A stretch of DNA of 64,000 nucleotides from an uncultured Bacteroidales bacterium (lineage in GTDB: Bacteria > Bacteroidota > Bacteroidia > Bacteroidales > Paludibacteraceae): NCBI GenBank assembly GCA_902774185.1, contig CACYHE010000009.1, positions 1 to 64,000 of the forward strand. Direction: 5' to 3'. Under the pieces are notes generated by a model. The model worked only from the letters and a program-made list of their open reading frames with translations. It had not been told where the DNA came from and did no database searches. This document shows, in pieces, positions 12,104-34,014 of this stretch (positions are counted from its first letter, which is position 1; each line of letters opens with the position of its first letter). Both the position numbers and the translations under genes were made by a program.

Positions 12104-12130
12104 ATTTGTTATTTGTTATTTGACATTTGT

Positions 12131-12179
12131 CATTCGTTCATTCGTTAACTCTTAACTCTTAACTCTTAACTATTCATTC
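12131..12179. repeat. 7-nt repeat array, intergenic
   Basis: Seven consecutive heptamers in one register, including three exact ttaactc copies. The array overlaps the end of the 138-aa gene, and a looser (g)ttattt heptamer run extends left to the terminator. Confidence 0.75.
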
Positions 12180-12586
12180 TTTATCTGCTTTCTGCGGCGG
12201 AGAGCAAGGAAGGCACCATAGGCAGCGACAAGCAGCATCATCGGCAGGACGGCATCTCCGACAGGGAAGGGGTTAACAGGAACGTCAGGATCGTCCTCAT
12301 CTTCGAATCCTTCTTCGCCGACTCTGCGTGGACGGGTTCCCGGCGCTTGAGCCGGATTATAATTGGCGGAGGTAGTGACACCTGTTGCTGCGGCTAAGGG
12401 TAGGGCAGAACCCGAATACATCATCGTGCTCGTAGAACTCATCGTTGCCTGGGGCATTCCGACTTGCACGGCGGAGTAGGACGCTTTGCGTTGCTGCGGC
12501 CGGTAGGGAGTGCCGAAGGTAGCGGCGGAGACGCTCACTACGCTCAATATGGCAATCACACTCAATATATATTTCAACGTTTTCAT
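12170..12586 (-). CDS. Small secreted protein with C-terminal PVGD-LP / TM / RRR tail (138 aa)
   Basis: An N-terminal signal peptide (MKTLKYILSVIAILSVVSVSA) is followed by a low-complexity Ser/Thr/Ala/Pro-rich middle and an acidic stretch (EEGFEDEDDPD). The C-terminus reads PFPVGDAVLP, then a hydrophobic segment MMLLVAAYGAFLAL, then RRRKQ. A short motif, TM and basic tail is the layout of tripartite sorting signals (sortase or exosortase type); comparable PxGD-type tails recur on small Bacteroidales proteins next to T9SS cargo. It is the last gene of the giant-protein operon, 41 bp after the 1402-aa gene. Processing by a protease is inference only, and no sortase is in the window. Confidence 0.75.
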   Translation of the reverse strand: MKTLKYILSVIAILSVVSVSAATFGTPYRPQQRKASYSAVQVGMPQATMSSTSTMMYSGSALPLAAATGVTTSANYNPAQAPGTRPRRVGEEGFEDEDDPDVPVNPFPVGDAVLPMMLLVAAYGAFLALRRRKQIKNE

Positions 12587-16881: not shown

Positions 16882-16896
16882 TGAATATCTTATTCA
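16882..16896 (-). other. Stop-codon hairpin shared by two giant genes (copy 1)
   Basis: TGAATAAGATATTCA on the minus strand contains the TAA stop of the 3400-aa gene and forms TGAATA/TATTCA with loop AGA. The identical 15-mer lies at 27143-27157. TAAGATATTC is complementary to GAATATCTTA in codons 3-7 of the next gene. Confidence 0.6.
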
Positions 16897-19800: not shown

Positions 19801-22800
19801 CCTACGGTCACATTGTGCTCGCCGACATCCCATGTGCCATTTCCAACATGCCACGTCACAGTATGAACCGCCGTCCATTTAGCGTACAGCGTAAAGTCTG
19901 CAGTCTTAGCCGTCGCACCGATAGACGATCCTGCACTAACCGTACAAGAGGCGTCGGTAAACCATCCGTCGAACCGATAACCATCCTTCACACCATCAAC
20001 CAAAGCCGTCGCACTTCCATAAGTATGTGTCGTGGGTGCACCCGTCGGAACACCAGCCGTGGCATTTCCTGAATAAGCCTCATTGCCTTGGTCCTTATAG
20101 GTAATCGTGTATTGCTCAGCGGTCCATTTTGCATAAACAGTCACACCGCCGTCTTTTACCCAGTGTCCACTACCATCGGTCCAGTTAACAGCCTCGATAG
20201 TAACACTGTTCTGCAGCACGCCGCTTGTACTGATCACCAGCGTGCCCGTTCCGTTATCGCCGCTCCAGTAACCGCCAAATTCATAACCGGTCTTGCTCGG
20301 AGCGCTCCAACCTGCCAACGTACCGGCATCAAAGGTCGCCGTCACACTCGTCGCACCCGATGCTGCACCTTCGCGGTCCAACTCAATCGTATATTGCTTT
20401 GCATTCCACTTCGCGTACAGCGTCTGGGCTGCCGTCACATCCTTATCCCAGTCGCGGGCACTCGTTCCATTCGCGAGATAATACTGCGTGCCGCTTCCGT
20501 CATTATCGGTCTCGCCATCCCAATAACCGTCAAACGTGTAACCCGTACGCGTCGGAGTGGTTACCGTCGTCATCGCCGAACCATAGGTTGCAGTCGTGCT
20601 GGCGTCTCCGCCCGTTCCACTATTCTTGTCAAAGTTCACCGTACAACTCTTCACCGTACAGGTCGCCGTTACCGTCGCATTGCCGGTGATGTAATATACA
20701 CCCGGCGTACCGGCAGCCGCAGCCGTCACGGTCGTTCCGTTCGTCACTACTACGCTCGAGAACTGATATCCAGTAGTTGGCGTAACTGTCACCTTGATAT
20801 ACTGCGTCGGCATCACCGTTCCGCCCGAAGCCAGCGCTGTAGTCGAGGTACCGGCATCGTCGTTGTATTTCTCCATCGTCACCGTACAATTCGTACCCGA
20901 CGAAGCAACCGTATATGTCTTCATACCGGTTGTGATGCTGTAGGTGTAGAACTCGCAGTTATCATTGTCCGAAGTCGTACCCGTTGTGTGCGTTGTCGTC
21001 GGAGTAACCGTCGTAGCAGCTTCCGTCACAGGCGCACCTTCAAAGCCCATCGCATTCGTGATAGCCAAACCACTACCGCTATTATCTTTGGTCCAATAGA
21101 TATTGCCTGTTCCTTGACCTTCGTTATTAGCGATATGCCAGTAATCGAATCCGTCATAAGTGCTCGTAGTTACGCTATAGAAATTAGCCGTACCTGCTAC
21201 TTTGGATAACTGTGTGTTTGAGTTGTGTGTCGATTTACCGATACGGTACCAAAGTTTGCTGCCGTCCCATTTGTTCACCTCGTTATCCCAGTAGATCACT
21301 TTGCCCGAAGCCTGGTTGGTACTCGGATAAACAACCGAAACCTTCATCTGGTCTCCTAATACACCTGCCGTGAAATCGAAGTTGAATGTATATGTAGCTG
21401 TTTTAGTGCCGGTCGTCACTTTCGCGTCTGCATCGTGCGGCATCGTCCAGTTGTTGCAGTTAGCACTGGTAATACCCGTCTCGTCGGAGTTTCCGTACCA
21501 ATCGTTACAACCATCAGTAATACGGAAGTTATAGGTCGTTCCACCGGTCAGGTTGAGCGACAGCGTCGCATGCGTAGCATCTACTTTTGTCAGCGCATAA
21601 TGGTCGATATCTGCTCCGAGGCTTGTTTTTAGGTAGAACTGCATACACTTGAGTTGGAATGCACTACTGGTCGTCGCGCAATTACTACCATATTGAACGG
21701 TACACGTGTACGCACCTGCATCGTCCACTGTTGCATTATTCTTTGTGTAAGTAGCACTCGTCGCGCCAACTATATTGACACCATCTTTCTTCCATTGATA
21801 AGTCACCGGAGTTCCTGCACCACCTGTCGGCGTAGCCGTCAACGAGATCGTCTCACCCGGGTAGAACTGATAAGCACCGCTTATATCTACACTCGAAGGA
21901 GCACCACAAGTAACTGTGAAATCAGCTGTCGCCGTAGCGCTGTTATAATTCGTTGTAGTAGCAACTGTTGCTGTAATCGTTGCCGTACCTTCCGCTACAG
22001 CCGTTACAACACCCGTGCTTTCATTGACTGATGCAACGCTGGGGTCACTACTGCTATAAGTCACCGTTCCGCTTCCCGTGTTGCCTCCAATCGTCGGATT
22101 AGAAGAATCATCTCCAATTACCAGCGTTCCGGACTCATAACTCAGCGTCGGCGTTATATTGGCCTTATTGACGGTCAAGGTATAAGAAGCTTCATCCGCA
22201 CAATAACTAATATCATTCACTTCCTGTGCAATCGAAGAAGCTGTGACGGTAGCTGATCCTGAACCTGCAATGCTTACTTGACCTGTTGTGCTATTGATCG
22301 TTACACAACCTGCCGGCGAAACATTGCTTAATGCATAAGTCACCGCTACACTATGCGTGTTCGTCAGCGTCTTTGTGAACGCTGCATCACCAAATGTCTT
22401 CGTCTCTGTTGCCGGACTATAAGCCAATTCCGCATCCGTACAACAACCTGTGATGTAGTCGGCATAAGTTACATTTTGTGAAGCAACTTCTAACTCTAAA
22501 TCATCCAAACGAGTATTGGAATTATTGCCGAATGTTAAGTTGATAGTGCTTGCCCCATCTGTTGTGATGGTATATGTTCCCGTACCACTAGTGATAGAAC
22601 CGGTAATACTTGGCTCTGCTTCATCATCAGTATCAACCGACAATGTTTGCAGAGATGTCTTATTGGTTTTAAATGTTAGTGTAAGCGTGGCGGCACCACT
22701 GGTCGGAATGCCGGAAATTGTCCATTCATTACCGGAAGTGAGTAATAATTCAGGAGCAGTACCACCACCTGTATTCTCATTTCTACAATAAACATTCTCA

Positions 22801-25800
22801 CCTGTTTCAGAGTATGTGATACTTGCACTGCCATACATCGTAGTTCCCTTAGAAGTACTACAGTTTACACTTGCTTTAGCTTGTTCTTTTGTGGGAGTAC
22901 CATTTCCCGTAGAAGTAACTGTATTTGCCCAAGTTTCTGCCCACATCGTAGTACCAACACTTGCTCCGGATGTGCTCTTTGTTACAAACACAGCACGATA
23001 AGTCGTATTCGCCTTCAGCGTTGTTGCACCGCCTACTGTGGTGAACAAATCTGCCGGAGCACTCTGAACAGGGGTTTCAATTTTGTCGCCTGCCGTCCAA
23101 CCCATGAACGTGTTCGCTCCAGTACCACAACTTGCCAGCGCATTATCTGCCGGAGTACTCGGCAACTCACTCACCTTTGTTCCGTACTTCACTTCCGTTG
23201 TCCCGCCGGTTGCAGCGCCATTACCCACTTTCCATGTAACCGTGATCGGTTTATAGAATACCGCCTTAATAGTTACATTGCCTGTCGGAGTGCCGGTTAA
23301 TGTCGTGCTGGCACTCGTCGTAGAAGTGATAGCCAAATCATTGTTGGAACCATCGAACTCCCAGTTCTTGAATGTATAATTGGTTGTACTTACACCTGCT
23401 GCCAAAGCGCGTGTGGTACAAGTAGCTGTTACTCCAGCTGCGTCAATAGACGAACCATCCGATGCTGCAACCTTATTCACCGTCACACTATAGACATCAA
23501 CCGTCGTCGTAGTCGTCTGGTTAATGCCGCCCTCAGTATAGGAAGCAGTAATCGTTTGACTTCCTGCGCTCAGCGCAGTCGTAGGTGTCCATGTAACACT
23601 TGCCGTCACGGCCTTCGTACTACCGTCACCCATCGTGGCAGTAACAACAGCGCCCGTGCTACTGAATGTCTCGCCTACCAAGTACTTGCGTGTTGTCGGC
23701 TGCGTCGTGATAGCAATGCTCTTCAGTTTGGCTGTCGCCGCGGCCGTAATAACGATATTGCCGGTAATAACCGCACTGAATGTAAACGCACCCGTACTAT
23801 TATTATAGGTGTAATCCGTTCCGGCTGTCAGCGTCGCACCGCCCATCGTCACAGCAATACTGCTCGGCAGGAAGAAGTTTGTTGCATCTACCGTAAACGA
23901 ACTATTCAGCGCTGTAGTTGCACTTCCCGTATAGGTGAACGAAGCCGGCAGACCCGCATTGGCTACGTTGCTGAACGTCTTGGTGATCGTATAAACATTC
24001 GCTGTCCATTTCGCGTACAGCGTCATCGTCTCATTCACTACATCCGTAGCGAAGTTCCATTCGTCTGTACATTCAGCATCGGTAAACCAACCGCCAAATG
24101 TATAACCCGTTGCGCTCGGCTCACTTGGTGCACTAATCTTGCTACCTGCCATTACATTGGTCAACTTAGAAATCGCATCTCCGTGACCTTGCAGATCAAA
24201 CGAAACCTCACCTTTCACAAACTCCTTGCTCATCACAAGCGTGTGGGCCATGATATTGAAAGTGGCCGTCACATTATATGTCGAACCAACGATCATACCG
24301 CTCAAGGTTGCGTTGGGGTTAACGCCGGTATTTCCGAGATTGCCATTATAATTGGTTGCAATGACATAGTCGGTTGAGGTGCCGGTCGGTGTATATTCAT
24401 AGGTTCCGCTCCACTCACCTGAACCCTGATCCGTGACCGTAGCTACCGAACTATTCCAATTATCGCTACTCATCAGACTCATCGTCAACGCCGTTGCTTT
24501 CCATGCCACATTGCTTGTTCCGGAACCGTTTGAGCAGAAGATGTTACTTCCACCTGATGATGCTTGAGTCAGTGTACCATTAGCATTGTAGAAATCAGAA
24601 CAGTTAGAAGCAAATCGTTGCAGAGTCACTTGGTTCAAGTCGCCATTAGCAGGCACTACAGCAGCGTATATCTTCTTACCATCATCGACACCAGTTGCGT
24701 TAAACAGCCAGTAAGTCGCCTGTGCCGCTCCTCCTGCGCCCGAAGCATTAAACCATGTCTTCACGCATGCACTTGCATCCCACGCACTGCTGCTCTCCGC
24801 CTGGATAAACACCGTCGTACCATTTATAAATAGCGAAGCTGCAACTATCGTCACCGTAGCTGTCGCCGTATTTCCGTTGTAGTTATCTGTAGCTGCAACC
24901 GTTGCTGTGACAGTAACAGAACCAGCTTCCACACCGGTTACAACACCCGTGCTCGTATTGATCGTCGCGCAACCTGCCGGTGAAGCGGATGTGATAGCAT
25001 AGGTCACACTACCGCTACCCGGGTTACCTCCAACGGTAGGCGTAGCAGTGTTATCTCCTGCAGCCACACTATTCGGCGAGTATGTCAAGGTCGGAGTAAT
25101 ATTCGCCTTATCCACCGTCAATGTATACGATGCCTCATCGGCACAATAACTAACCGTCGATACTGTCTGAGCCGCAGAGGATGCCGTGATAGTAGTTGTT
25201 CCTGCTCCCTTGATAGTTACTGTTCCATCTGCCGCAACCGTTGCTACATCTGTATCACTGGATTCATATGTTACAGTCACACTATTACTATTCGTCAATG
25301 TGTTCGTGAATGTACCATTCCCATAAGTCTTTGATACACTTCCCGTTGCGTATGCCAATTCAGGATCCGTACAACAAACCGTACGATAATTCGTCAATGT
25401 TGTACCACTTGCCGCAAACTTACCGACACCGTTGTCGTTCTGCGCAAAGCGATAAACAAAACTCCATGTGCCGTTGCCGTTGTCCGTCGGCCCGCTCACG
25501 TAAACCGGATCGGCAGGAATAGTTCCGCTGGTCTTTGACCAAGTCAGTCTGTCGCCGCTCTTCATGAAGTATCCAGAACTCGGCGTCACCGTTACCGTCA
25601 CTTCTCTCGTAGACTCTCCTCCACATGTCGCAGTACTTGCCGCCGAGAACGTCATAGTTGAAATATGCGTACTCCCCGCCGAATTATAGCTCACTGCCAC
25701 TCCCTTGTCGCAGCAAGAAGGGGAACTCCAATAGTTGATTGTTCCTGCTTTATACAGAAGAATGCTATAAGGATCGTCGCCTGCTTGGAATAATTTATTT

Positions 25801-27092
25801 GTCTCGTCAAAACTTAAATACGCATCGTTATACTTGCTATTATAGTAATAATGACAATTCAAACTCCAAACTCCTGCCGAGACGGTTATTTTGTATGGAT
25901 CATCACTGTCATAGGCTTTTCCCCACCAATCGGTATAAGCTATATCCAAATAATTGTTAGTCGCATTTACAACATCGTGAATCCTCCAGTTGTCAGTAGA
26001 ACCGTCGATTGTATAACACCAATTCGCATTAACGGCAGCAGCGTGATATTTGTTGGAAGAAGTCTCGTTTATTTGCGCACTCGCCATTGTATGAGATGTA
26101 GTGTTATAGTCTGCAGAACTGGATTTTAAGATGTAGTTCTTTGAGCTATAGTTGACAACGATAAGATATTTACTGCCGCTGGTAATAGAACTCGTCTCTT
26201 TCGTATATTCTCCTTGCGCATATACGGCATGTAGCGTTATATTATCAGATGCCGGATGATAAGTATCTCCCGCTTTTCCCACTATAGTTGGCGCAGTTGT
26301 AGTAGATGAACCCACCGCCGCAGTAGCCCATCCATAAAATGCCCATCCTTCTGATGCACAAGCAGCACTCGGACTCGCAGCAGGTAATTCTACTCCTGCT
26401 CCGCCGGATTCTTCCTCCAACGATGCCGTTCCGCATGTTCCTCCCTCTGCATTAAAGGTTACAGTATAAGGATCAGATGATGCGTACCACACGGATAACG
26501 ATGTCATACGAATTTGTACGGTAGTTGAAATATTAACCGAATTGGCATCTCCCGTCCATGTTCCTGTATAGCCATCATACGAATATGTTCCTTTATTAGC
26601 GCTTGCATTGCCGGGACCATATTTGTCAGTTCCACTTGCAGTACAAGTAAACTCAATTTTTGTAATATTTCCTGCTGTACAAGTAAATGAACCTGTTTGA
26701 TTAGCATATATCTGATAATAACTCGCATTATTCATAGTGGTCATTGTACATGACACATTATTTTTTGTCACATATGTAGCACCAGTTTCTGTTCCCGGTG
26801 TAAAATCAACCCGGATATCTCCCCACGCATTACCAACTCCCAATACTGTCAGACATGCCACAAGTATAGCCAAAACAGACTGGTGTGAAGAAGCCAATTG
26901 ACTTTTGGCTTCGAAAGGGAAGGCGTGCGGGGAGCACTGGCCGACCGAGAATGTCTCGCACGATGATTCAGCACTATATGTGCGCAAATCAGACTGGCGA
27001 GACACTATCGAGAGAGAATCGAGTCGAGAGTATGTCCTACTCATTACCTTACCAAAACCTATCAAAGTACTTATTAAGATATTCTTTTTCAT
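16890..27092 (-). CDS. Giant secreted InlB-repeat protein without visible sorting domain (3400 aa)
   Basis: The start MKKNILISTLIG at 27092 is preferred; the 14 upstream in-frame residues are translated heptamer spacer. A hydrophobic signal core (SVLAILVACLTVLGVGNAWG) lies at about residues 72-91, after an abnormal insert of about 55 residues. About eleven InlB/Listeria-Bacteroides units are recognisable by endings such as LYAKW, LHAKW, TAQW and FYAVF. Two related CCTD-ELAY modules and an Ig/PKD-like module (ISLTATPTGGAGTPVTYQW) are also present. It ends FYAVWAKFE with no T9SS C-terminal domain. It is the second gene of the operon, 17 bp of visible spacer after the 640-aa stop. Export is supported; surface anchoring is not. 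Confidence 0.85.
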   Translation of the reverse strand: MKKNILISTLIGFGKVMSRTYSRLDSLSIVSRQSDLRTYSAESSCETFSVGQCSPHAFPFEAKSQLASSHQSVLAILVACLTVLGVGNAWGDIRVDFTPGTETGATYVTKNNVSCTMTTMNNASYYQIYANQTGSFTCTAGNITKIEFTCTASGTDKYGPGNASANKGTYSYDGYTGTWTGDANSVNISTTVQIRMTSLSVWYASSDPYTVTFNAEGGTCGTASLEEESGGAGVELPAASPSAACASEGWAFYGWATAAVGSSTTTAPTIVGKAGDTYHPASDNITLHAVYAQGEYTKETSSITSGSKYLIVVNYSSKNYILKSSSADYNTTSHTMASAQINETSSNKYHAAAVNANWCYTIDGSTDNWRIHDVVNATNNYLDIAYTDWWGKAYDSDDPYKITVSAGVWSLNCHYYYNSKYNDAYLSFDETNKLFQAGDDPYSILLYKAGTINYWSSPSCCDKGVAVSYNSAGSTHISTMTFSAASTATCGGESTREVTVTVTPSSGYFMKSGDRLTWSKTSGTIPADPVYVSGPTDNGNGTWSFVYRFAQNDNGVGKFAASGTTLTNYRTVCCTDPELAYATGSVSKTYGNGTFTNTLTNSNSVTVTYESSDTDVATVAADGTVTIKGAGTTTITASSAAQTVSTVSYCADEASYTLTVDKANITPTLTYSPNSVAAGDNTATPTVGGNPGSGSVTYAITSASPAGCATINTSTGVVTGVEAGSVTVTATVAATDNYNGNTATATVTIVAASLFINGTTVFIQAESSSAWDASACVKTWFNASGAGGAAQATYWLFNATGVDDGKKIYAAVVPANGDLNQVTLQRFASNCSDFYNANGTLTQASSGGSNIFCSNGSGTSNVAWKATALTMSLMSSDNWNSSVATVTDQGSGEWSGTYEYTPTGTSTDYVIATNYNGNLGNTGVNPNATLSGMIVGSTYNVTATFNIMAHTLVMSKEFVKGEVSFDLQGHGDAISKLTNVMAGSKISAPSEPSATGYTFGGWFTDAECTDEWNFATDVVNETMTLYAKWTANVYTITKTFSNVANAGLPASFTYTGSATTALNSSFTVDATNFFLPSSIAVTMGGATLTAGTDYTYNNSTGAFTFSAVITGNIVITAAATAKLKSIAITTQPTTRKYLVGETFSSTGAVVTATMGDGSTKAVTASVTWTPTTALSAGSQTITASYTEGGINQTTTTTVDVYSVTVNKVAASDGSSIDAAGVTATCTTRALAAGVSTTNYTFKNWEFDGSNNDLAITSTTSASTTLTGTPTGNVTIKAVFYKPITVTWKVGNGAATGGTTEVKYGTKVSELPSTPADNALASCGTGANTFMGWTAGDKIETPVQSAPADLFTTVGGATTLKANTTYRAVFVTKSTSGASVGTTMWAETWANTVTSTGNGTPTKEQAKASVNCSTSKGTTMYGSASITYSETGENVYCRNENTGGGTAPELLLTSGNEWTISGIPTSGAATLTLTFKTNKTSLQTLSVDTDDEAEPSITGSITSGTGTYTITTDGASTINLTFGNNSNTRLDDLELEVASQNVTYADYITGCCTDAELAYSPATETKTFGDAAFTKTLTNTHSVAVTYALSNVSPAGCVTINSTTGQVSIAGSGSATVTASSIAQEVNDISYCADEASYTLTVNKANITPTLSYESGTLVIGDDSSNPTIGGNTGSGTVTYSSSDPSVASVNESTGVVTAVAEGTATITATVATTTNYNSATATADFTVTCGAPSSVDISGAYQFYPGETISLTATPTGGAGTPVTYQWKKDGVNIVGATSATYTKNNATVDDAGAYTCTVQYGSNCATTSSAFQLKCMQFYLKTSLGADIDHYALTKVDATHATLSLNLTGGTTYNFRITDGCNDWYGNSDETGITSANCNNWTMPHDADAKVTTGTKTATYTFNFDFTAGVLGDQMKVSVVYPSTNQASGKVIYWDNEVNKWDGSKLWYRIGKSTHNSNTQLSKVAGTANFYSVTTSTYDGFDYWHIANNEGQGTGNIYWTKDNSGSGLAITNAMGFEGAPVTEAATTVTPTTTHTTGTTSDNDNCEFYTYSITTGMKTYTVASSGTNCTVTMEKYNDDAGTSTTALASGGTVMPTQYIKVTVTPTTGYQFSSVVVTNGTTVTAAAAGTPGVYYITGNATVTATCTVKSCTVNFDKNSGTGGDASTTATYGSAMTTVTTPTRTGYTFDGYWDGETDNDGSGTQYYLANGTSARDWDKDVTAAQTLYAKWNAKQYTIELDREGAASGATSVTATFDAGTLAGWSAPSKTGYEFGGYWSGDNGTGTLVISTSGVLQNSVTIEAVNWTDGSGHWVKDGGVTVYAKWTAEQYTITYKDQGNEAYSGNATAGVPTGAPTTHTYGSATALVDGVKDGYRFDGWFTDASCTVSAGSSIGATAKTADFTLYAKWTAVHTVTWHVGNGTWDVGEHNVTVGNTNVVSGSKIDAMPDAPADNTLSACASKFMGWSTHSWGATPKGTGTGEYDDLFTTVGGSPTISGTTHFYAVFAETAGAAVNTVMWSEDWTGATTATEPSDAAKPSAQGSHSGKTVYGGGSVSYVETSNATYARNDNTAGGTAPELMIKQNETWTISGIPTGGAVTLTLSFITNKSSLGTLTVATSEGGKTPTISGSITGSSAPYSGSYTITTDGASTINITFGNTSNTRLDEIDVRVATVTYGNYRTQCDANLVKVTYDADGGSTTCADGSHDKRNDYAVCATEPTRDYYTFAGWLCSADDEVYAANATISAAAIDADFTLTAQWTPVPYSITYELYSGTNSGSNPATYNVTTATITLQDPTKGHDRFEGWFSTYSAGVYSDQVTSIPLGSHGDITLHAKWAERHEIIFDADGATTTIYRADDEDLSASVAEQGSVPSDPSAPTACSSKVFVGWSESTIDGETDTEPGDLMKPAAGTVDEDKHYYAVWATESSSSGPVTVFNDAFQQVTNGDAYDDNKAKADKYTASYVYGTGTAGEARLSSSKNAGSLDIDLSDKTLASSFTITFKLKRYSTETGSVTLSCIDDGSTASFGSSPFSYPTGDDNWHDCSSTVTSVNASTQTVHFASTSGKRVYIKDIVITQTGTIYTYTAYSTSCCATKVTLSQNSPENGTIAFGKTSVGTCGGDKDVSLTITPAAGYQLHSYEVATGSGKVSATADPAISLDNNSSAAQNITLTFAEDANGAYDVTASFSLMTVTSWTWTLNSAAIPDPLNLYVGQNARLDVAYTPAGVDASKKTYTRNKDNTYINWVGGLNANYSTISGRASTGENTTAVSFTHADGPETVVNVKVLPLPLVHFTDLVHGKAFADVVATIEANALSATKTTPTSDDWTTPNANDCESNHLHLVGWIREDWPALVAYLNGTGDAPTTVAITGAGNDGSDHAYYIAAGASIDVQTFDGVTFYAVWAKFE
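26890..27028 (-). repeat. Palindrome-rich insert in the signal-peptide region of the 3400-aa gene
   Basis: Three structures lie in the codons between MKKNILISTLIGFGKV and the hydrophobic core. They are an 8-bp stem gaagccaa/ttggcttc (26890-26912), a compound palindrome of 53 nt with outer arms tgtctcgc/gcgagaca (26952-27004), and an 11-nt tandem pair (27007-27028). Confidence 0.6.
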
Positions 27093-27103
27093 AACCTTTA
27101 ACT

Positions 27104-27138
27104 CTTTCATTCGTTCATTCATTAATTCGTTCATTCGT
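27104..27138. repeat. 7-nt repeat array between 640-aa and 3400-aa genes
   Basis: About five heptamers (ctttcat, tcgttca, ttcatta, attcgtt, cattcgt). Read in frame they would add the non-native MNELMNERMKELKV to the next protein, which argues for the later start. Confidence 0.65.
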
Positions 27139-27142
27139 TATA

Positions 27143-27157
27143 TGAATATCTTATTCA
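27143..27157 (-). other. Stop-codon hairpin shared by two giant genes (copy 2)
   Basis: Same TGAATAAGATATTCA 15-mer as at 16882-16896, containing the TAA of the 640-aa gene. The following gene again has the complementary GAATATCTTA just inside its start. Confidence 0.6.
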
Positions 27158-29073
27158 TCATAATCCGCAAATACGGCGTAGAATGTCTGATTTCCTACAG
27201 CCTTCAAGTCCGGAGAACCCGCAACGTCTGTAAACAAATTCAAACCGGTGTCATTATCCTGACTAACATTTGCCTCTGTTGTCCATCCAACAAACTTATC
27301 TCCGCAGTAGGATGCTGGACTCGGAGGACCGGGCACCGAAGCTACTTTAGTGCTTGTCCCATTATAGGTAAGCGTTTGTGCCTCGTACACATTCGTTGCT
27401 CCGTTCACACTCCATGTAACCGTACAAGTCCATTTGGCATAAAGCGTTATATCGTCTGCGTATTTCCAATTCTTGCTGGCATCGGTGTAAGTACTTCCTC
27501 CTCCGGCACTTGCAATCACATTACCGCTGGCATCTATAATCTGCGTACCACCTCCGTTCTTGGCGGTGTAATAACCGGCAAACGTCCAACCGGTCTTGGT
27601 CGGAGAAGTAATCGCCGGAGTGCCATCTAAATTATTGTCATCATCAAAAGTTACCGCAATAGAGGCCGTTCCTGCCGAAGTGGGCGTCAGGTCTTTATCA
27701 AAATTAATCGTATAGTTATTTGGTGTCCATTTCGCATAGAGCGTCTTATTTTCTCCGCTTACTGTACTTGTACCAAAGTTCCACTGTGTTCCTTGCGTCC
27801 AATCTGCATTGTCATACCAACCGCCGAAGGCGTAACCGGTCACACTCTCCGAATAACTCGGATCAGTTGCCAAATCACCGTTGTTCACATATTGTGTAGT
27901 CGGAGTACTACTTCCATGCCCGTTCAAATTAAATGTCACACTGCGAGGCTGGAATGTAATGGTATCGCTATATACTGTTGCCGGCTTGCCGTTTGTAGCA
28001 AAAGCACGTACGGAATAACGTGTGCCAAGTTCAAACGAACTTTTAGTAAGGTTCGCGCTAAATGACCCCGAACTATAAGCGCCGGAAGTAACGGCTACTT
28101 TTGTCACACCGCTTCCGCCTATCTCTTTCTTTGTGCCGTCTCTTTCGTACCATATAAATCCATAATCCCCACTTGCAACAGAGCAGTTAGTACCTGGTGT
28201 AATACTTGCACATTGTACACCCACCGTGGTCAAATTAAAGGACCCATTTAATGACGCATTTCCGACAGTCGGATCTGCAGAGCATGCGGCAGCCTCTGAA
28301 GTAGTGAACGAAGTACCTTTAATCCAAGCTGATTTGCAACTGTTATTAGAACGCACCCACCAATTATAAGTAGTAGCTGATTCTAATGATGTCAAATCCA
28401 CATATGTGTTAGTGGTATTTGAAACTGTCGGAGTGGTATTTATACCGGGAGCATTATTTGAAGTACTACGATACACATCAAAATGACCAACGCTATGTGA
28501 ATCAGACCAACTCAAATGTGCTGTAGAGGAGCCAATAGTTCCGTTCGTCAGAGAGGTTGGTTCATAGGTGTACGAAATCTGAATCGTGGAGATTTGTAAT
28601 TGCGTATTTGTTATATTCACATTTTGGATCTTCAACGACGATGTGGCGGCAATATTAGTTACGGTATATGAACCACTGCTACGAGAAACAGATGTAGCAG
28701 TTCCTCCGTCCACGGTATATTTAACAGACGGGTTTGTAGCCGTAGCCATTACAAATCCCGTGATAGTTACTCCATCTACAGGAGTGATTGTAATCGAACC
28801 ACCCTTCTGGTTGCTAGAAAAGTACAATCGCAACTGCTTATTATTAGCGTTATACGCAGGGGCACTGCCAGAGTTTGCTGCAGTGGAGAATGACAACAAG
28901 TTTGTGACAGAACCTGAAGTGGCAGTAAAATTGGTATAATTGCTTCCCGAAGCAGCTCCCCATCCTAATGTATAGGTGTTACATGCTCCCCACATCTGTC
29001 CGACGGAGAGGGTGATTAATAAGATGATGGTTGCGAACCATCGAAAGTTGTTCAATAAGTTAAAATGTTTCAT
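27151..29073 (-). CDS. Secreted FN3/InlB-repeat protein, first gene of the giant operon (640 aa)
   Basis: The signal peptide MKHFNLLNNFRWFATIILL... ends near QMWG (about residue 29). An FN3-like module (about 175-260, with SSTAHLSWSDSHSVGHFDVY) is followed by the segment ACSADPTVGNASLNGSF (about 263-280). Three InlB repeats with endings LYAKW and FYAVF come after it. The protein stops at FYAVFADYDE without a T9SS sorting domain. Bases 28237-28292 are a near-identical inverted copy of the 3' end of the truncated gene at 30012. The downstream 3400-aa gene starts 58 bp later. A likely export substrate; function unknown. Confidence 0.85.
   Translation of the reverse strand: MKHFNLLNNFRWFATIILLITLSVGQMWGACNTYTLGWGAASGSNYTNFTATSGSVTNLLSFSTAANSGSAPAYNANNKQLRLYFSSNQKGGSITITPVDGVTITGFVMATATNPSVKYTVDGGTATSVSRSSGSYTVTNIAATSSLKIQNVNITNTQLQISTIQISYTYEPTSLTNGTIGSSTAHLSWSDSHSVGHFDVYRSTSNNAPGINTTPTVSNTTNTYVDLTSLESATTYNWWVRSNNSCKSAWIKGTSFTTSEAAACSADPTVGNASLNGSFNLTTVGVQCASITPGTNCSVASGDYGFIWYERDGTKKEIGGSGVTKVAVTSGAYSSGSFSANLTKSSFELGTRYSVRAFATNGKPATVYSDTITFQPRSVTFNLNGHGSSTPTTQYVNNGDLATDPSYSESVTGYAFGGWYDNADWTQGTQWNFGTSTVSGENKTLYAKWTPNNYTINFDKDLTPTSAGTASIAVTFDDDNNLDGTPAITSPTKTGWTFAGYYTAKNGGGTQIIDASGNVIASAGGGSTYTDASKNWKYADDITLYAKWTCTVTWSVNGATNVYEAQTLTYNGTSTKVASVPGPPSPASYCGDKFVGWTTEANVSQDNDTGLNLFTDVAGSPDLKAVGNQTFYAVFADYDE
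28237..28292 (-). repeat. Inverted repeat, left copy (candidate recombination site)
   Basis: This 56-bp segment matches 30952-31007 in opposite orientation with five mismatches, including an exact 22-bp block (28271-28292) that contains GCATGC and CTGCAG palindromes. Both copies are read in the same codon phase (A-C-S-A-D-P). Confidence 0.7.
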
Positions 29074-29114
29074 TTTATCTATTGCTTATAATGTTATCTA
29101 TGTTATTGGTTAGC

Positions 29115-29130
29115 GGCTCTTGGCTGAGCC
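29115..29130 (-). other. Leader hairpin before the giant operon
   Basis: GGCTC (29115-29119) pairs with GAGCC (29126-29130), between the candidate -7 box and the 640-aa ATG. Confidence 0.35.
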
Positions 29131-29138
29131 CTTAATCT

Positions 29139-29146
29139 CAAAATTA
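29139..29146 (-). promoter_or_regulatory. Candidate -7 box for the giant operon
   Basis: TAATTTTG on the minus strand is a perfect TAnnTTTG, 65 bp before the ATG of the 640-aa gene. The expected -33 position (29167-29170) reads AATC, a poor match, so the assignment is weak. Confidence 0.4.
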
Positions 29147-29191
29147 TATTGATCTTTGACATAATGGATTACCCGCTTGCACTAAGGCTCA

Positions 29192-29219
29192 ATACGATTC
29201 GCGAATACTTCGCTCGTAT
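29192..29219. other. Inverted repeat in the divergent region
   Basis: ATACGA and TCGTAT flank a 10-bp palindrome attcgcgaat (29197-29206). No gene is visible in 29074-29404. Confidence 0.35.
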
Positions 29220-29244
29220 GAATTTTTGCCTTGTGCTACGCGTT

Positions 29245-29281
29245 CCCCACGAAATATCGTTGCACTAGCATTTCGTCGGGG
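29245..29281. other. Long inverted repeat between the giant operon and the TA module
   Basis: CCCCACGAAAT (29245-29255) pairs with ATTTCGTcGGGG (29270-29281), with one bulged base and a 14-nt loop. It lacks a T-run, so it does not look like a simple terminator for the plus strand. Confidence 0.45.
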
Positions 29282-29347
29282 ACCCCATAAGTGCTTTTCG
29301 CCCAAAACAGCCAAAAATGCTTCAAAAACATCTTTTTGTCTCAAAAA

Positions 29348-29379
29348 CTTGCATATATCAGAAAAAAGTTGTACCTTTG
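29348..29379 (+). promoter_or_regulatory. Promoter of the toxin-antitoxin pair
   Basis: CTTG (29348-29351), 20 bp, TACCTTTG (29372-29379), 25 bp before the antitoxin ATG. The -7 box is perfect and the -33 has one mismatch. Confidence 0.8.
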
Positions 29380-29404
29380 CAGCGGTTTTTGAAAATTTAG
29401 ATCT

Positions 29405-29557
29405 ATGTTAGTAACACCTACAAGAGAAAGAGATTTCGTACCGATGTCTCACAATTACGAAAGCGAAGTGTACTACACTCGTGAGGAATTTATGGACGAA
29501 TTGGCTAAGCAACTTGGTCATGTTTATGGTTTGAATGATATCAGGGAGGCGTGCTGA
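29405..29557 (+). CDS. Putative antitoxin of a ParE/RelE-type module (50 aa)
   Basis: ATG at 29405 and TGA at 29555-29557 encode MLVTPTRERDFVPM... ending YGLNDIREAC. The acidic, helical second half (YYTREEFMDELAKQLGHVYG) looks like a toxin-wrapping antitoxin tail. The stop shares its A with the ATG of the downstream toxin (TGATG), a typical coupled arrangement. It has its own promoter. The family is not recognised by name; identity rests on size, overlap and the partner. Confidence 0.72.
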   Translation: MLVTPTRERDFVPMSHNYESEVYYTREEFMDELAKQLGHVYGLNDIREAC

Positions 29558-29859
29558 TGCGTTATACGATTCGATTCAAATCAAAGGCATATTCCGACAT
29601 CGCTCAGTTGAGGGACTTTATTCACAAGAAGTGTGCAGCTCCCTTAATGGCTCTTCGTCAGTTTGAATTATTAGAAGAGCATCTGAATTGGATAGAGCAA
29701 TATGCCGAGTTGCCGGGAATAGACGTAGAACTTTCCATCAAATATGGTCAGATTATGCGCAACGTAACATTTGGGAAAAAAATGGCTATTCTCTATACTG
29801 TTGAGGATAATATAGTGTATATTCATCGAATCATGCCACAAAGTATGATTATTCTATAA
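29557..29859 (+). CDS. RelE/ParE-family toxin (100 aa)
   Basis: The ATG at 29557 overlaps the antitoxin stop. The sequence has the RelE/ParE layout: MRYTIRFKSKAYSDIAQLRDFI (strand and helix), central QYAELPG, then strands IMRNVTFGKKMAILYTVEDN and IVYIHRIMPQSM. The C-terminal hIHRI segment is typical of ParE/RelE-fold proteins, which inhibit gyrase or cleave mRNA depending on subfamily. The sequence does not decide which. A GTG six bases upstream is possible but less likely. The module lies within the 2.7-kb segment bounded by the inverted repeats at 28237 and 30952. Confidence 0.8.
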   Translation: MRYTIRFKSKAYSDIAQLRDFIHKKCAAPLMALRQFELLEEHLNWIEQYAELPGIDVELSIKYGQIMRNVTFGKKMAILYTVEDNIVYIHRIMPQSMIIL

Positions 29860-29880
29860 GACAAATAGTTAATAATCTTT

Positions 29881-29922
29881 CAAGCGGTAATCCAACAAGC
29901 AGCAGGGTTGCCGCTTGTTTTA
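29881..29922 (+). terminator. Terminator of the TA module
   Basis: CAAGCGG (29881-29887) and CCGCTTG (29911-29917), with a further CAAC/GTTG pairing inside, followed by TTTTA. It lies 21 bp after the toxin stop. Confidence 0.7.
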
Positions 29923-30011
29923 TGTCAATATGTCAATGTGCGTTTTGCGGAAAGTCCGCGACTATAGGTTGAATGTAAATAACTAAATCGAAATATTTAA
30001 ACCAAAATAGT

Positions 30012-31067
30012 ATGACAAATTTGTTTACTAATTTATCAAATTGGAAAGTAAAGTACACTTGTGCTTTGCTTATGTTTGTTTGCTTTGGTGTTGGCACCGC
30101 GTGGGGAGCACAACCAATCAACTCCCAAGCTCCGGCAAATGGGAAATCGTTCATTATTGCTCTTTATTACAATGGCAAGTACCATGCTTTACCTGCCAAT
30201 TTAACAAACACTGGTGTGACTCCTGCAGGTTTGGAATGTACTCTTGATGCGAACAACAAAGTGTCGGCTATTAGTACATGTGATACTCCTGATGAGTGCT
30301 TGTGGTATTTCGAAACAGCTACGGGAGGGTATAATATATCTTATGTTGATGCAGAAGATACTAAACGGTATCTTTATAAAAATGGTACGACGGGAAACAA
30401 TTACAATATTTCCGCTAATGCAAATTACAAATCCCAATCCGTATGGGCATTTACATCTGGGACATTACCTAACTTTAGCGTGACAGCATATTCCATGAAA
30501 ACTACAAAAACCGCAGATAGTGGAACTATGAAACATACGGTAATGAAAGCCAAAAACAATACTTCTTTTCAAGTTAATGGAACAACTAACACATATGTTA
30601 TTACTTTGTTAAAACCAGCCCCTAGAATCAACTGCGCTACTTCTAGTTTAACAGGTTTTACCTATGCTGCGGGAAACGGTCCAAGTGATGCGCAATCTTT
30701 TTCTGTTAGTGGATCGCATTTAACTGCGGATATTACCGTTAGTGCACCATCTAACTTTGAAGTCAGTACCTCAAGCGGAAGCGGTTATAGCAGCAGTGTA
30801 ACGCTTACTCAATCATCTGGCTCTGTTGGCGCGACAACAGTTTATATTCGTCTCAAATCCGGACTTTCTACCGGATCGTACACCGGAACCTCCATCACTA
30901 TGACTAGTACAGGAGCCGCAAATAAGACTATTTCTTTGTCAGGTTCTGTCACTGCCGCATGCTCTGCAGATCCATCTGTCGGAAGTGTGTCATTAAACGG
31001 GTCCTTTTTTGGGAACACCTGTTTTATGCCCCTCCGCCCTGATAAATGCGACTCAAATAGTCCATAG
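30012..31067 (+). pseudogene. Truncated T9SS-type secreted protein gene (N-terminal 351 codons)
   Basis: The signal peptide (KYTCALLMFVCFGVGTAWG, ending about residue 33) precedes a module with GKSFIIALYYNGKYHALPANL and a BACON/Ig-like module rich in SGSGYSSSVTL. The segment ACSADPSVGSVSLNGSF then aligns with residues about 263-280 of the 640-aa protein. Homology stops after base 31007, and about 18 unrelated residues (FGNTCFMPLRPDKCDSNSP) lead to a stop. There are no InlB repeats and no sorting domain. It is either a disrupted gene or a silent N-terminal cassette, because recombination at the inverted repeat would join it in frame to the 640-aa gene. No good promoter is seen upstream. Confidence 0.72.
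30952..31007 (+). repeat. Inverted repeat, right copy (candidate recombination site)
   Basis: Pairs with 28237-28292: 51 of 56 bases match, with an exact 22-bp block at 30952-30973. Coding homology ends at its right edge. Confidence 0.7.
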
Positions 31068-31076
31068 TGGCATTTA
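31043..31076. other. Inverted repeat at the truncation junction
   Basis: TAAATGC and GCATTTA (with ACT/AGT inside) frame a 12-nt loop just beyond the break in the truncated gene. The rest of 31068-31228 is AT-rich, with no recognisable gene. Confidence 0.4.
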
Positions 31077-31228
31077 CCTTATTCCATCGTACTTATCACG
31101 TATCCTACACCACCTTATATATACTATGTATATATCCAGTGATTTTGAATTTTGCATTTTTTGCTCTTTTTAGTTATCTACATTATGTCAATGTGCATTT
31201 CGCTTATTTTTTAGTGCCAAGCGCAGCA

Positions 31229-31834
31229 CTATGCTATCTTATTCATCAGTATATATCGTTTTAACGTGTTCGGGCTGCATTTAAGTCTTTTGGCGATTGA
31301 CCTTTGCGATTTGCCTTCCAACATCGCTCTGCGGATATATTCCGATTTGCCGTACAATAGATGTGTCTCAGGACTGCTCTTACTTCCTCGCGGTCTTCCC
31401 ACATGTTTTCCTTCTGCCCTCAACCGCGCCATGGCTTCCCGTGTCCGCTGACTAATCAGGTTCCGCTCTATCTCTGCGCTTAACCCAAAAGCAAACGCCA
31501 ACACCTTGCTCTGTATATCATCCCCTAACCTGTAACCGTCCTTGATGGTCCACACCGCACACTCACGGCGCATACAATAACTCAATATCTCCATGATCAT
31601 GTAGAGATTTCTTCCCAAGCGGCTCAATTCGCTGCAGATAATCAAATCTCCTTTCCCTACATGTTTTATCAAATGTCCTAAACGTCTTTTGGTATAGGCT
31701 TTCGTACCAGACACCGTCTCCTCTATCCAATCTTCAATTACCAAACCCTCTCTCGCGCAAAACTGACGAATCTCATACCGCTGATTTTCCACCGTCTGTT
31801 TATCACTGCTCACGCGAATATACCCATACGTCAT
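31229..31834 (-). CDS. Mpi-like serine DNA invertase/resolvase (201 aa)
   Basis: MTYGYIRVSSDKQTVENQR carries the catalytic serine in YIRVSSDKQ (residue 9 or 10), followed by the resolvase signatures CSELSRLGR, LAFAFGLSAEIERNLISQRT and GRPRGSK. A C-terminal helix-turn-helix (SQRSIAKRLKCSPNTLKRY) follows. Length and sequence fit the Bacteroides Mpi/Pin-type invertases, which invert promoter or coding segments between inverted repeats. The ATG at 31834 is chosen over 31861 because it gives the conserved MxxGYIRVSSDKQ start. It sits immediately beside the truncated secreted-protein gene with the inverted repeat. It has a perfect promoter and a leader hairpin shared with ORF6N. Confidence 0.9.
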   Translation of the reverse strand: MTYGYIRVSSDKQTVENQRYEIRQFCAREGLVIEDWIEETVSGTKAYTKRRLGHLIKHVGKGDLIICSELSRLGRNLYMIMEILSYCMRRECAVWTIKDGYRLGDDIQSKVLAFAFGLSAEIERNLISQRTREAMARLRAEGKHVGRPRGSKSSPETHLLYGKSEYIRRAMLEGKSQRSIAKRLKCSPNTLKRYILMNKIA

Positions 31835-31857
31835 TATGCATCCAATTTTAAACGAAA

Positions 31858-31880
31858 ACAAAACCGCTTTGCGATTCCGT
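31858..31880 (-). terminator. Terminator-like hairpin in the invertase leader
   Basis: ACGGAATCGC, loop AAA, GCGGTTTTGT pairs over 10 bp with G-U wobbles, followed by TTTCGTTT. It lies 24 bp before the ATG. Sequence and position correspond to the stem before ORF6N; the loop-proximal pair differs on both sides (T-A there, C-G here), so pairing is kept. Confidence 0.55.
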
Positions 31881-31927
31881 AAGGGTTAGATTATTAACCG
31901 TTGGTTCTTGTTTTTCAAATTCGGGTG

Positions 31928-31959
31928 CAAAGGTACTGCAAAAAAATGAAATACGCAAA
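31928..31959 (-). promoter_or_regulatory. Promoter of the Mpi-like invertase
   Basis: TTTG (31956-31959), 20 bp, TACCTTTG (31928-31935) on the minus strand: a full consensus match. ACCAACGGTTAA follows at 31894-31905, as in the ORF6N leader. Confidence 0.85.
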
Positions 31960-32067
31960 TAAAATTATTAAGAAATTTTAAATGTAAACTTTATGTGACA
32001 AAGAGCATAAAACAAGAAAAACGCAACATATTATATTTCAAAACATCCGGCAAAAGAAATGTTCGAT

Positions 32068-34014
32068 TTATAAACTTGCTCGCAGTAAGAGATGCACGTC
32101 CGTTCGAGTGGTTGCGCGATGATGCTCGGAAGCCCATTTGGAACTATAAACCGTTTCGCTAACCCGCAGATAGAGTGCCAGTTGGTTGATGATCTGCCAT
32201 TTGAGACACAAGTACGCCCGACCGCCCAAACCATAGGTCGCAGGAATAGAAAAAGAGTAGAGTACGTCGTGCTCGTACAGATAGATGCGATTGGACCAGT
32301 TTTGAGCGTCAAAACCCTGCAACCGAAGCCGCAGACTTAATGGTGTACGGTGTACGGTGTAGGGTGTAAAATCATATGCTATATCTTGTGCGATACTGAT
32401 GCCGTAACTGCTTACATAATTACCGTCTGCCGTGGTACGCAAACTCCATGGACCTTTGCTCCAATCGAACTGAAAACGTGCGGAATAGGTAGAACTGCCT
32501 TTCTTTCGGGTACGGATTCTTCCGCTAATCGCTAATCGCTCTTCGCTCCTCGTTCGATCATATTTGGCCTCCAACATTGCGTCATACCCGATCGTTTTTG
32601 TGGCATCGCCCAAACCGTATTTATATCCGCTGAAATAGAATACATCGCCGTAGCCGCTGAACCGCCAGTTTTTGAGCCGTGTGATGTCAAAACCGATATA
32701 TCCGCCGTTCTCATCATTGATGCGCGAAGTCTCCGAAAAACCGTAGCCCCACGCATTGTCAAACCAAGGCGAATAATAGCGATATAAAGCAATCAGATTT
32801 ACCCCATCCGCAGGATAAAATCGACATCCCACAAGCGTACCTACTCCCCATTTGTCATTGGTGATTTGTGATTTGTCATTGGTGGTTTCTGATTGGTGAT
32901 TTTGGCTGGTAGCCACTTCGCCGAAGACATCAAACCAACCGTGGTTATACCGTACTGAAGCACCCAATACGGCTTGATGGAACCCTCTGAAATAGTGTTG
33001 GTTATACTTCGCATTACGGTACGGACGAATGGAGTCCGACCATATGTTTTCGATACCCGTCAGCTGCACTTCAAGTCGCTTATGGCGCAGCGTCAGATTC
33101 GCTCCTACGGTGTGTTGCCATGTGCTGTCATTGGCGCGTCGCATGGAGTACAACGCACTTACATCCAGACGGGTGCTCTTGCCCCATTCCCAACGCAGCG
33201 TGGTACCTGCGCCATGCATACTTGCGCCATCCGCTCCGCCGTAGTGACGCAGTCCCTGTTGCTGCATCCCGGCTGAGGCTACATACATCGATTTGCCCGA
33301 ATGAAAAACCGGTGCCAACACAAGTCCCTGACCGAACGATGCCTGGTAGTTGCCTCCAACGATCTTATGCACATGCGGAGCGATGTCGGTTAACTGCAGA
33401 TACGCCCCGTATTGAAGGTCTTGCGCCATGCCGCCTACCGGTCTTCTAAGCTGCGCACCGAAAGTTACACGACGCTGATAATCAAAACGATAGCGGAACT
33501 GCGCGAAGACCGGATCCGTACTTAAAGTGTCCTCTATATTCCGTGCGTCAACCCGTGCAACCAGTTCATGTTTCGCGTGCGCGAACACCTCACGCGCGTA
33601 CTTCATATTATTATTTGTTATAGGTGATTGGTCATTGGTAATTTGGATGAAGGGCAACAGGTCCCGGATCTCATAATCCGCCAGACTCGGAATCAACTGT
33701 AACTCATACAGACTCTCAAACGGATGGCGATCGGCGTACAACAGGATATCATCGATCTGACGAGGGGACAGAAAATAAAGTTGCTCCAGTTCTTCTTCAT
33801 TCGTATGGTTCAGGTCAATCGGATTCGCATGTAACGCATATAGGTCTGTTTGCAGTTGTTCAAAATCGACGGCATCTATCTCCGTAACGGCATTATAGAT
33901 ATCGAGGACGACTTCGTCCAAGTTGAAAGTTGAAAATTGAAAGTTGAAAGACTCTTGCGCAACTATTTTCAGCGCACAACAAATAAGCCCTATGAACCAA
34001 ATTCTGTGTTTCAC
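32068..34014 (-). CDS. Helix-hairpin-helix / outer-membrane beta-barrel protein (648 aa)
   Basis: A GTG at 34014 gives a clean signal peptide (VKHRIWFIGLICCALKIVAQ). ComEA-like helix-hairpin-helix segments follow (about residues 60-135: HANPIDLNHTNEEELEQLYFL, PFESLYELQLI). The remaining about 480 residues alternate beta-strands with aromatic ends, as in an outer-membrane barrel. Large HhH-plus-barrel proteins of this size are common and uncharacterised in Bacteroidota. The start is decided by the promoter at 34019-34050, whose -7 box ends 4 bp before the GTG, giving an almost leaderless mRNA. Five arrays of 7-nt repeats lie within the gene, encoding segments such as FNFQFSTFN and ITNDKSQITNDK. 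Confidence 0.82.
   Translation of the reverse strand: MKHRIWFIGLICCALKIVAQESFNFQFSTFNLDEVVLDIYNAVTEIDAVDFEQLQTDLYALHANPIDLNHTNEEELEQLYFLSPRQIDDILLYADRHPFESLYELQLIPSLADYEIRDLLPFIQITNDQSPITNNNMKYAREVFAHAKHELVARVDARNIEDTLSTDPVFAQFRYRFDYQRRVTFGAQLRRPVGGMAQDLQYGAYLQLTDIAPHVHKIVGGNYQASFGQGLVLAPVFHSGKSMYVASAGMQQQGLRHYGGADGASMHGAGTTLRWEWGKSTRLDVSALYSMRRANDSTWQHTVGANLTLRHKRLEVQLTGIENIWSDSIRPYRNAKYNQHYFRGFHQAVLGASVRYNHGWFDVFGEVATSQNHQSETTNDKSQITNDKWGVGTLVGCRFYPADGVNLIALYRYYSPWFDNAWGYGFSETSRINDENGGYIGFDITRLKNWRFSGYGDVFYFSGYKYGLGDATKTIGYDAMLEAKYDRTRSEERLAISGRIRTRKKGSSTYSARFQFDWSKGPWSLRTTADGNYVSSYGISIAQDIAYDFTPYTVHRTPLSLRLRLQGFDAQNWSNRIYLYEHDVLYSFSIPATYGLGGRAYLCLKWQIINQLALYLRVSETVYSSKWASEHHRATTRTDVHLLLRASL
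32342..32369. repeat. 7-nt repeats in the HhH/barrel gene (a)
   Basis: Four contiguous heptamers: ggtgtac, ggtgtac, ggtgtag, ggtgtaa. Confidence 0.85.
32524..32558. repeat. 7-nt repeats in the HhH/barrel gene (b)
   Basis: Five heptamers: gctaatc, gctaatc, gctcttc, gctcctc, gttcgat. On the coding strand they give YDRTRSEERLAIS. Confidence 0.8.
32851..32899. repeat. 7-nt repeats in the HhH/barrel gene (c)
   Basis: Seven heptamers in strict register, alternating tttgtca/tttgtga and ttggtga/ttggtgg types. Confidence 0.85.
33611..33645. repeat. 7-nt repeats in the HhH/barrel gene (d)
   Basis: Five heptamers: ttatttg, ttatagg, tgattgg, tcattgg, taatttg. They encode ITNDQSPITNNN. Confidence 0.75.
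33921..33948. repeat. 7-nt repeats in the HhH/barrel gene (e)
   Basis: agttgaa, agttgaa, aattgaa, agttgaa just after the signal peptide codons; encodes FNFQFSTFN. Confidence 0.85.

Follow-up and report, generated by a model that had tools for sequence, protein, structure and literature searches.

A predicted Mpi-linked inversion cassette that would exchange the front end of a secreted repeat protein in an uncultured Paludibacteraceae bacterium

The window analyzed here comprises the first 64 kb of contig 9 in the 2.19-Mb, 87% complete assembly GCA_902774185.1 of an uncultured Bacteroidales bacterium of the family Paludibacteraceae. It carries what we predict, with a probability of about 85%, to be a two-state inversion cassette, in which an adjoining invertase of the Mpi family would flip 2.7 kb of DNA and so give a secreted repeat protein a different N-terminal module, together with the 5' region and signal peptide that precede it. 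An inversion of N-terminal modules had been proposed in an earlier, sequence-only reading of this DNA, and the proposal is now supported by eight Mpi cassettes of the same genus (the window included), among which the interior occurs in both orientations, and by one near-identical module that is found in both states in proteins of close relatives.

The repeat, the genes it joins, and the invertase

The segment is bounded by a 56-bp inverted repeat, with its left arm at positions 28237 to 28292 on the minus strand and its right arm at 30952 to 31007 on the plus strand. Our repeat comparison reproduced the coordinates, the 51 matches in 56 positions, and the exact 22-bp stretch that the sequence-only reading had reported; by chance, 64 kb of DNA should hold only about 1e-4 exact inverted 22-mers. 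A 90-nt query over the left arm recovered from the whole assembly only the two arms and one 14-nt chance match.

The left arm lies within the gene for a 640-aa secreted protein (27151 to 29073, minus strand), an open reading frame (ORF) with a match to PF09479, sub-threshold similarity to fn3, and FN3-like domains in its structural model. Its front end (28237 to 29073) and the fixed InlB/List_Bact-repeat part (27151 to 28236, minus strand; 361 residues of repeat protein past NGSF) are joined in the present orientation. The right arm belongs to a truncated, silent front-end gene of 351 aa (30012 to 31067, plus strand), which encodes a signal peptide, an N-terminal module with a weak beta-trefoil match, and a further beta region leading up to SLNGSF. 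Outside the segment, this gene continues into a dead-end tail of 19 residues (FGNTCFMPLRPDKCDSNSP; 31008 to 31067, plus strand) followed by a stop, and the same or nearly the same tail ends proteins P0232, P0234, and P0240 of our comparison set. Both copies of the repeat are in one codon phase (1 and 1), as had been claimed: they encode the domain start CSADPxVGxxSLNGSF in the same frame in both genes, and NGSF ends at 31007 in the truncated gene and at 28237 in the 640-aa gene, which is the same codon boundary. The 2,659-bp interior between the arms (28293 to 30951) holds two divergent front ends with their 5' regions, and we compared these regions with two related loci, L088 and L175, as described below.

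In the present state, the MKHFN-type front end, carried by the 640-aa protein, is in frame with the fixed repeat part, while the MTNLF-type front end runs into the dead-end tail and gives the silent 351-aa protein. In the proposed mechanism, inversion would yield a 693-aa protein with the MTNLF-type front end, along with a silent MKHFN-type protein of 298 aa; the C-terminal part would stay fixed, and what precedes it would change. Just 16 bp downstream of the 640-aa gene starts the gene for a 3,414-aa List_Bact-repeat/Ig-like secreted protein (16890 to 27134, minus strand), which is probably part of the same operon. Since a 5' region comes with each front end, the probable operon that includes the 3,414-aa gene would be expressed whichever way the segment lies, and the flip would be a swap of tips rather than an ON/OFF switch. 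A TAnnTTTG motif was found ahead of the 640-aa start (at 29146) and none just upstream of the silent gene start, so that expression in both states is an inference. A pure promoter switch, in which the repeats flank an intergenic promoter only, can be ruled out for the window because both arms are coding; intergenic arms do occur in relatives such as L063 and L118.

The gene for the invertase (31229 to 31834, minus strand; 201 aa) lies 222 bp from the right arm, and its assignment to the Mpi type agrees with a match to NF009949 ("master DNA invertase Mpi family") at 301.8 bits against a cut-off of 272. The protein covers positions 2 to 145 of the 145-position Resolvase profile PF00239, its C-terminal helix-turn-helix (HTH_38) scores 23.1 bits, under the cut-off of 27, and by sequence it matches DNA-invertase chains in the PDB, which we take to be those of Gin. 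It is the sole PF00239 match in the assembly and would presumably catalyze the inversion of the segment. Mpi relatives at an E value of 1e-40 or better were found in 99 of 300 genomes of the family, and the closest in that search was the one of L088, at 88%.

The cassette and its front ends in related species

We collected the DNA around such invertases in 188 loci (L numbers; the window included), which represent 167 distinct Mpi-like stretches, and sorted them into classes ourselves from the search outputs. Relatives of the same genus include uncultured Bacteroidales and Paludibacteraceae that were sampled from the rumen and related gut sources. Eight same-genus cassettes emerged: the window, L061 (from genome G015), L062 (G022), L088 (G318), L093 (G263), L096 (G300), L099 (G297), and L175 (G285). 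Their order is Mpi, then a truncated secreted gene that faces it, then a larger secreted gene that diverges from the truncated one. The arms of an inverted repeat lie at the two coding ends, and both ORFs are in one frame at the repeat in seven of the eight. The arms are perfect over 21 to 25 bp in L061, L062, and L093 and match at 28 of 30 positions in L088 and 38 of 40 in L175. Two loci depart from the common layout: L093 has a 440-aa secreted gene between Mpi and the silent gene, and the cassette of L099 is found upstream of Mpi, at a distance of about 3 kb. Although the arms of L099 match at only 19 of 25 positions, we kept this locus since both encode GxINGS; L188 and L195, with arms of 19/25 that lack the NGS motif, were left out. 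The front ends vary between the cassette species.

For the comparison of orientations, which the sequence-only reading had suggested as a check, every locus was turned so that Mpi reads forward. Both orientations were seen, in two different species: positions 11407 to 11853 of L088 (450 bp that include a DUF2442 gene) and 11994 to 12228 match positions 10437 to 10013 and 9947 to 9711 of L175 on the opposite strand, at 82 to 83%, and the mid-segment DUF2442 gene accordingly lies on the minus strand in L088 (11644 to 11853) and on the plus strand in L175 (10013 to 10222). The 280-nt 5' regions follow the same pattern, that of the L088 large gene resembling that of the L175 silent gene (79%) and that of the L088 silent gene resembling that of the L175 large gene (67%), while the remaining pairs of these four regions reach 51 to 57% and shuffled sequences about 50%. 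In the window, the 5' region of the silent gene shares 62% with the L175 silent gene and 61% with the L088 large gene, and that of the 640-aa gene shares 60% with the L175 large gene and 54% with the L088 silent gene. Judged by these alignments, L088 has one orientation and L175 the other; the window goes with L175, though less sharply. Given that the segment stands in opposite orientations in two related species, a cell would likely switch the tip of its surface protein by flipping it, and we would expect such switching within the strain of the window as well.

Further support comes from a comparison of 245 proteins (P numbers), in which the same front ends recur in the silent and the fused state. 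The front end starting MTNLFTNLSNWKVKY precedes the dead-end tail in the window gene and in P0240, and it precedes the repeat part in P0007, P0008, and P0076; thus, the claim that the front end of the truncated gene could be joined to the InlB-repeat part is supported by MTNLF-type proteins of both kinds. The silent P0240 carries the window's tail at 18 of 19 residues, and its front end is identical to that of P0076 at 184 of 198 residues and to that of P0007 at 172 of 198, both of which are fused to the repeat part. In P0232 and P0234, the tail is preceded by other front ends. The front end starting MKHFNLLNNFRWF, in turn, precedes the repeat part in the 640-aa protein and in P0034, as it does, at 21 to 22 of 29 residues, in P0077, P0078, and P0087. 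One further protein, P0193, ends in NGSFF, with the F of the window's silent tail where the fused proteins listed have N or S. It combines an MKHFN signal peptide with a module that is identical to the window's MTNLF module at 210 of 286 residues, so that modules seem to move between the two slots. Among the 105 pairs formed by 15 proteins (P0007 and P0008 were dropped from 17 by the motif expression), the fixed parts are at least 70% identical in 27 pairs, and in 26 of these 27 the front parts share 19 to 39%.

Besides the cassettes, the collected loci include other arrangements. At 10 other Mpi loci, repeats enclose short segments that are mostly intergenic and usually lie directly upstream of Mpi; in L231 the repeat-bounded segment contains Mpi itself, and L114 (19/25) and L190 (20/25), both with repeats upstream of Mpi, were excluded from this promoter-type count. 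L063, L102, L105, L113, L118, L120, L183, and L191 have a short segment between inverted Mpi-type sites, some 540 to 110 bp upstream of Mpi, as if Mpi switched its own promoter. Another 12 loci (L111, L122, L125, L132, L133, L137, L141, L142, L147, L150, L164, and L167) have an Mpi relative next to a pair of converging genes with long inverted repeats. In the four of these whose genes were checked against Pfam (L125, L142, L150, and L164), an Eco57I-type methylase and/or a TaqI_C specificity domain was found, so that the specificity of a restriction enzyme would be switched. L153 holds, at 5706 to 8068, two converging lipoprotein-like genes with a 126-bp perfect inverted repeat that contains a site-like stretch, upstream of an Mpi relative; this pair was excluded from the cassette count. 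Contig 9 of G298 (L089) encodes two Mpi relatives on one strand, their starts separated by about 1.8 kb. In L081 (9495 to 10298), the Mpi gene is split into two frames; next to it, perfect 20-bp inverted repeats bound a 154-bp segment that lies upstream of a gene that we named SusC-like by eye.

The predicted crossover site and other features of the locus

The repeats of the relatives share the motif AAAC-GNYC-C(T/A)TT-NNTTK-GNNC-CA, and site models trained without the window place a predicted Mpi crossover site at each arm: at 28228 to 28261 on the left (registers 28228 to 28244 and 28237 to 28261) and at 30983 to 31020 on the right (registers 30983 to 31007 and 31000 to 31016). With a weight matrix built from 22 sites of 13 loci, the window sites rank 1 and 2 among 127,952 positions on both strands; when the restriction-enzyme loci are added (37 sites), they rank 3 and 4, and 17-column versions of the two matrices give ranks 1 and 2 and ranks 2 and 5, respectively. 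The training set, labeled Paludibacteraceae, includes some records named only Bacteroidales. As the orientation of its sites was chosen after the window had been seen, an unsupervised 17-mer model was run to offset this, based on 12 arms and trained without the window, L088, L175, and the restriction loci. It ranks the window sites 1 and 3 among 127,968 positions, rank 4 being the other strand of the right site. The four registers that had been named in advance score at background in this model, because the 17-mer is shifted by about 8 bp, and its best matches cover the same bases. A looser pattern, which was written with the window in view, has its only perfect match at the left site and finds the right site among nine matches at up to 2 mismatches.

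These positions coincide with what the cassettes have in common. When aligned, they share a stretch encoding S-L/I-N-G-S or T-N-G-T (GGS in L061 and L062), and strong homology stops there. The crossover thus likely falls at the outer end of the 56-bp repeat, within the S-L-N-G-S codons. The sequence-only reading had singled out the 22-bp core with GCATGC and CTGCAG: the stretch is indeed exact, but as the place of crossover it is disfavored, since the other cassettes lack it and share the outer-end stretch of the arm instead, to which the site models also point. In the structural model of the 640-aa protein (639 residues, as the first Met is absent; pTM 0.46), residues 272 to 278 (ASLNGSF; +1 in the full protein) adopt a beta strand; the region around it is modeled with good confidence and has fibronectin-III-like matches, which would put the exchange in the opening strand of a domain.

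The MKHFN-type front end was modeled with low confidence. For the silent module, Foldseek returned weak beta-trefoil matches to lectins, a clostridial hemagglutinin component, fibroblast growth factor, and fascin (best E value, 0.0023), and, because the confidence of the silent front-end model is low (mean pLDDT 63), we take this as no more than a hint of fold. It is plausible that the swap would change what the surface binds or how it is recognized.

The interior also contains a putative antitoxin ORF of 50 aa (29405 to 29557, plus strand) and a ParE-like toxin ORF of 102 aa (29551 to 29859, plus strand), which the sequence-only reading had seen as a pair carried by the segment. The pair has weak support and is not shared: the ParE match scores 21.1 against a Pfam cut-off of 23, the antitoxin matches no family, and no such pair was found between the two genes of L061, L062, L088, L093, L096, or L175, two of which carry a DUF2442 gene in the interior. 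We therefore reject the toxin-antitoxin pair as a fixed part of the cassette.

Two other searches concerned the surrounding DNA. Rfam gave no match over positions 26500 to 32500. The DNA that separates Mpi from the dead-end tail contains a stretch of some 50 bp (31099 to 31149; ACCACCTTATATATACTATGTATATATCCAGTGATTTT with its flanks) that recurs at many places in genomes of the genus: a 237-bp query covering it has matches in 92 of 178 same-genus genomes (few candidates were scored per genome), and most of the matches listed span this stretch only, three of them elsewhere in the window's own genome. Within the window it is present in a single copy.

Alternative explanations and known systems

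Several observations weigh against a cassette that still flips. The arms of the window are imperfect (51/56), the silent ORF of L061 stops ahead of its arm, and most of the 167 distinct Mpi stretches lack such a cassette, partly because 56 of them have less than 4 kb of downstream sequence. At the site itself, the two overlapping registers are indistinguishable. The strict consensus of the relatives' sites finds no match at up to 3 mismatches in the whole assembly, so that the window sites must be diverged ones, and the looser pattern at 3 mismatches gives 58 matches against 50 in the control, barely above it. As to orientation, the 5' regions of the window sort with L175 less sharply (60 to 62%, and one expected pair at 54%), and short repeats in these regions match other loci either way, L094 matching the L088 and L175 segments in both orientations. 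L094 was not used, and we therefore placed our weight on the 450-bp alignment with the DUF2442 gene, which L088 gives with L175 alone. A search with an inverted product of 693 aa constructed in silico scored 7,992 candidates and found no close match, and a search by DNA for an inverted copy from the same species found none in 178 genomes of the genus; outside the window's own genome, the best match reached 72% over about 260 nt. Even the two proteins of the window, however, are known from no more than 3 and 4 contigs. Finally, P0193, the sole silent protein of MKHFN type, may be cut by a contig end.

Some of these points would suit the view that the repeat is a relic, in which the truncated gene would be a duplicate that has decayed, or the remnant of an ancient inversion, and the sites would no longer recombine: the arms are imperfect, the window site departs from the relatives' consensus, and the silent ORF of L061 is broken. 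The silent ORF of the window, however, stays open for 351 codons, right through the repeat. Moreover, the homologous proteins P0123, P0193, P0197, P0198, P0206, P0211, and P0216 of other contigs likewise end within about 45 residues past NG(S/T)F (some perhaps cut by contig ends), four front ends have the tail in common, and one module occurs in both states. We therefore consider a relic improbable.

Alternatively, the segment might flip through homologous recombination of the RecA type between the two 56-bp arms, or through a different recombinase, with Mpi a bystander that acts elsewhere. The 56 bp at 91% identity could allow rare homologous exchange, and the Mpi of Bacteroides fragilis works at many distant sites, according to the passages of PMC5903667 considered here. 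Yet the shared stretch measures only 21 to 25 bp in three relatives and resembles the repeats that surround short segments beside other Mpi genes, and the cassette lies beside or near Mpi in eight species. No other Resolvase-domain gene was found in the assembly, in which tyrosine recombinases were not searched for. On balance, a bystander role for Mpi appears very improbable. That the 56 bp are ordinary domain homology, one repeat of a common beta-sandwich domain inverted by chance, can be set aside almost with certainty: the arms do encode the start of a common domain (CxADPxVGxxSLNGSF) that is present in many proteins, but this view predicts many copies of about 90% identity in unlinked genes, whereas the 90-nt search returned the two arms only, strong homology stops at the site, and similar inverted pairs recur near Mpi in eight species.

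Mpi is familiar from B. fragilis as the master serine invertase that switches capsule promoters. If the two-state cassette is real, enzymes of this type would serve across the genus to alter the front end of large surface proteins, and with it probably their binding tip, with phage attack and attachment to host or plant fiber as plausible selective forces. A single kind of recombinase would then link invertible promoters, restriction-specificity switches, and the exchange of protein tips, and the site consensus and the named loci make this testable in uncultured rumen bacteria. It is tempting to go further, and we hold the following extension to be evenly balanced between right and wrong: that the Mpi site of this genus of Paludibacteraceae has turned into a protein motif (S-L/I-N-G-S, the opening strand of a beta-sandwich domain), through which every secreted module that ends with the motif could be joined to every giant repeat protein that starts with it. 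Mpi would flip between two slots, each a 5' region plus signal peptide, and homologous recombination would replace the modules within the slots, which together would make an open-ended system of tip swapping.

Programmed inversions that alter genes were reportedly described by Milman and co-workers in 2023, intragenic inversions by Chanin and co-workers in 2024, and Mpi itself by Coyne and co-workers in 2003. In the literature that we searched, largely without subscription papers, we recognized no exchange of secreted repeat-protein front ends by Mpi, at a site that doubles as a protein motif; we do not claim that it is absent from print. An arrangement reminiscent of the window cassette is the G segment of phage Mu, where the serine invertase Gin swaps alternative parts of a surface-binding protein between two states. 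There, C-terminal tail-fiber parts are swapped behind a fixed N terminus, whereas the window cassette would swap N-terminal parts. Tsr0667, which acts in the SusC/SusD shufflons of B. fragilis, is a tyrosine enzyme. Closer at hand, the 12 loci with converging genes, which match an Eco57I-type methylase and/or TaqI_C in the genes checked, resemble the cassette in having an Mpi relative by long inverted repeats and a loosely similar site, but they would exchange the DNA-specificity domain on the C-terminal side of an enzyme and not the N-terminal part of a secreted protein.

Three related kinds of switch are already known, as described in the passages of PMC4747536, PMC5903667, and PMC3047005 drawn on here: promoter switches by Mpi, SusC shufflons, and chimeric surface proteins in Ureaplasma. 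In B. fragilis, Mpi acts on 13 inverted regions, 7 of which are polysaccharide promoters (PMC4747536, PMC5903667); its NCBIfam family is that of the window invertase, and the relatives studied here likewise have repeats around short, mostly intergenic segments by Mpi, whereas in the window the repeats are part of coding sequence, and it is the front ends of proteins that would be exchanged. The SusC/SusD shufflons of the same species are, like the predicted cassette, DNA inversions at outer-membrane protein genes in a member of the Bacteroidales (PMC4747536), but they employ Tsr0667, multiple inversions, and SusC/SusD proteins, in contrast to two states, Mpi, and List_Bact/FN3-like repeat proteins in the window. 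In Ureaplasma, an unrelated organism, inversion at short repeats within the ORF gives rise to chimeric surface proteins at MBA and UU172 (PMC3047005, whose passages considered here name no recombinase). The window cassette would likewise make chimeric proteins by inversion at intra-ORF repeats, but in Ureaplasma the N-terminal part is constant and the rest varies, whereas in the window cassette it is the C-terminal part that would be fixed.

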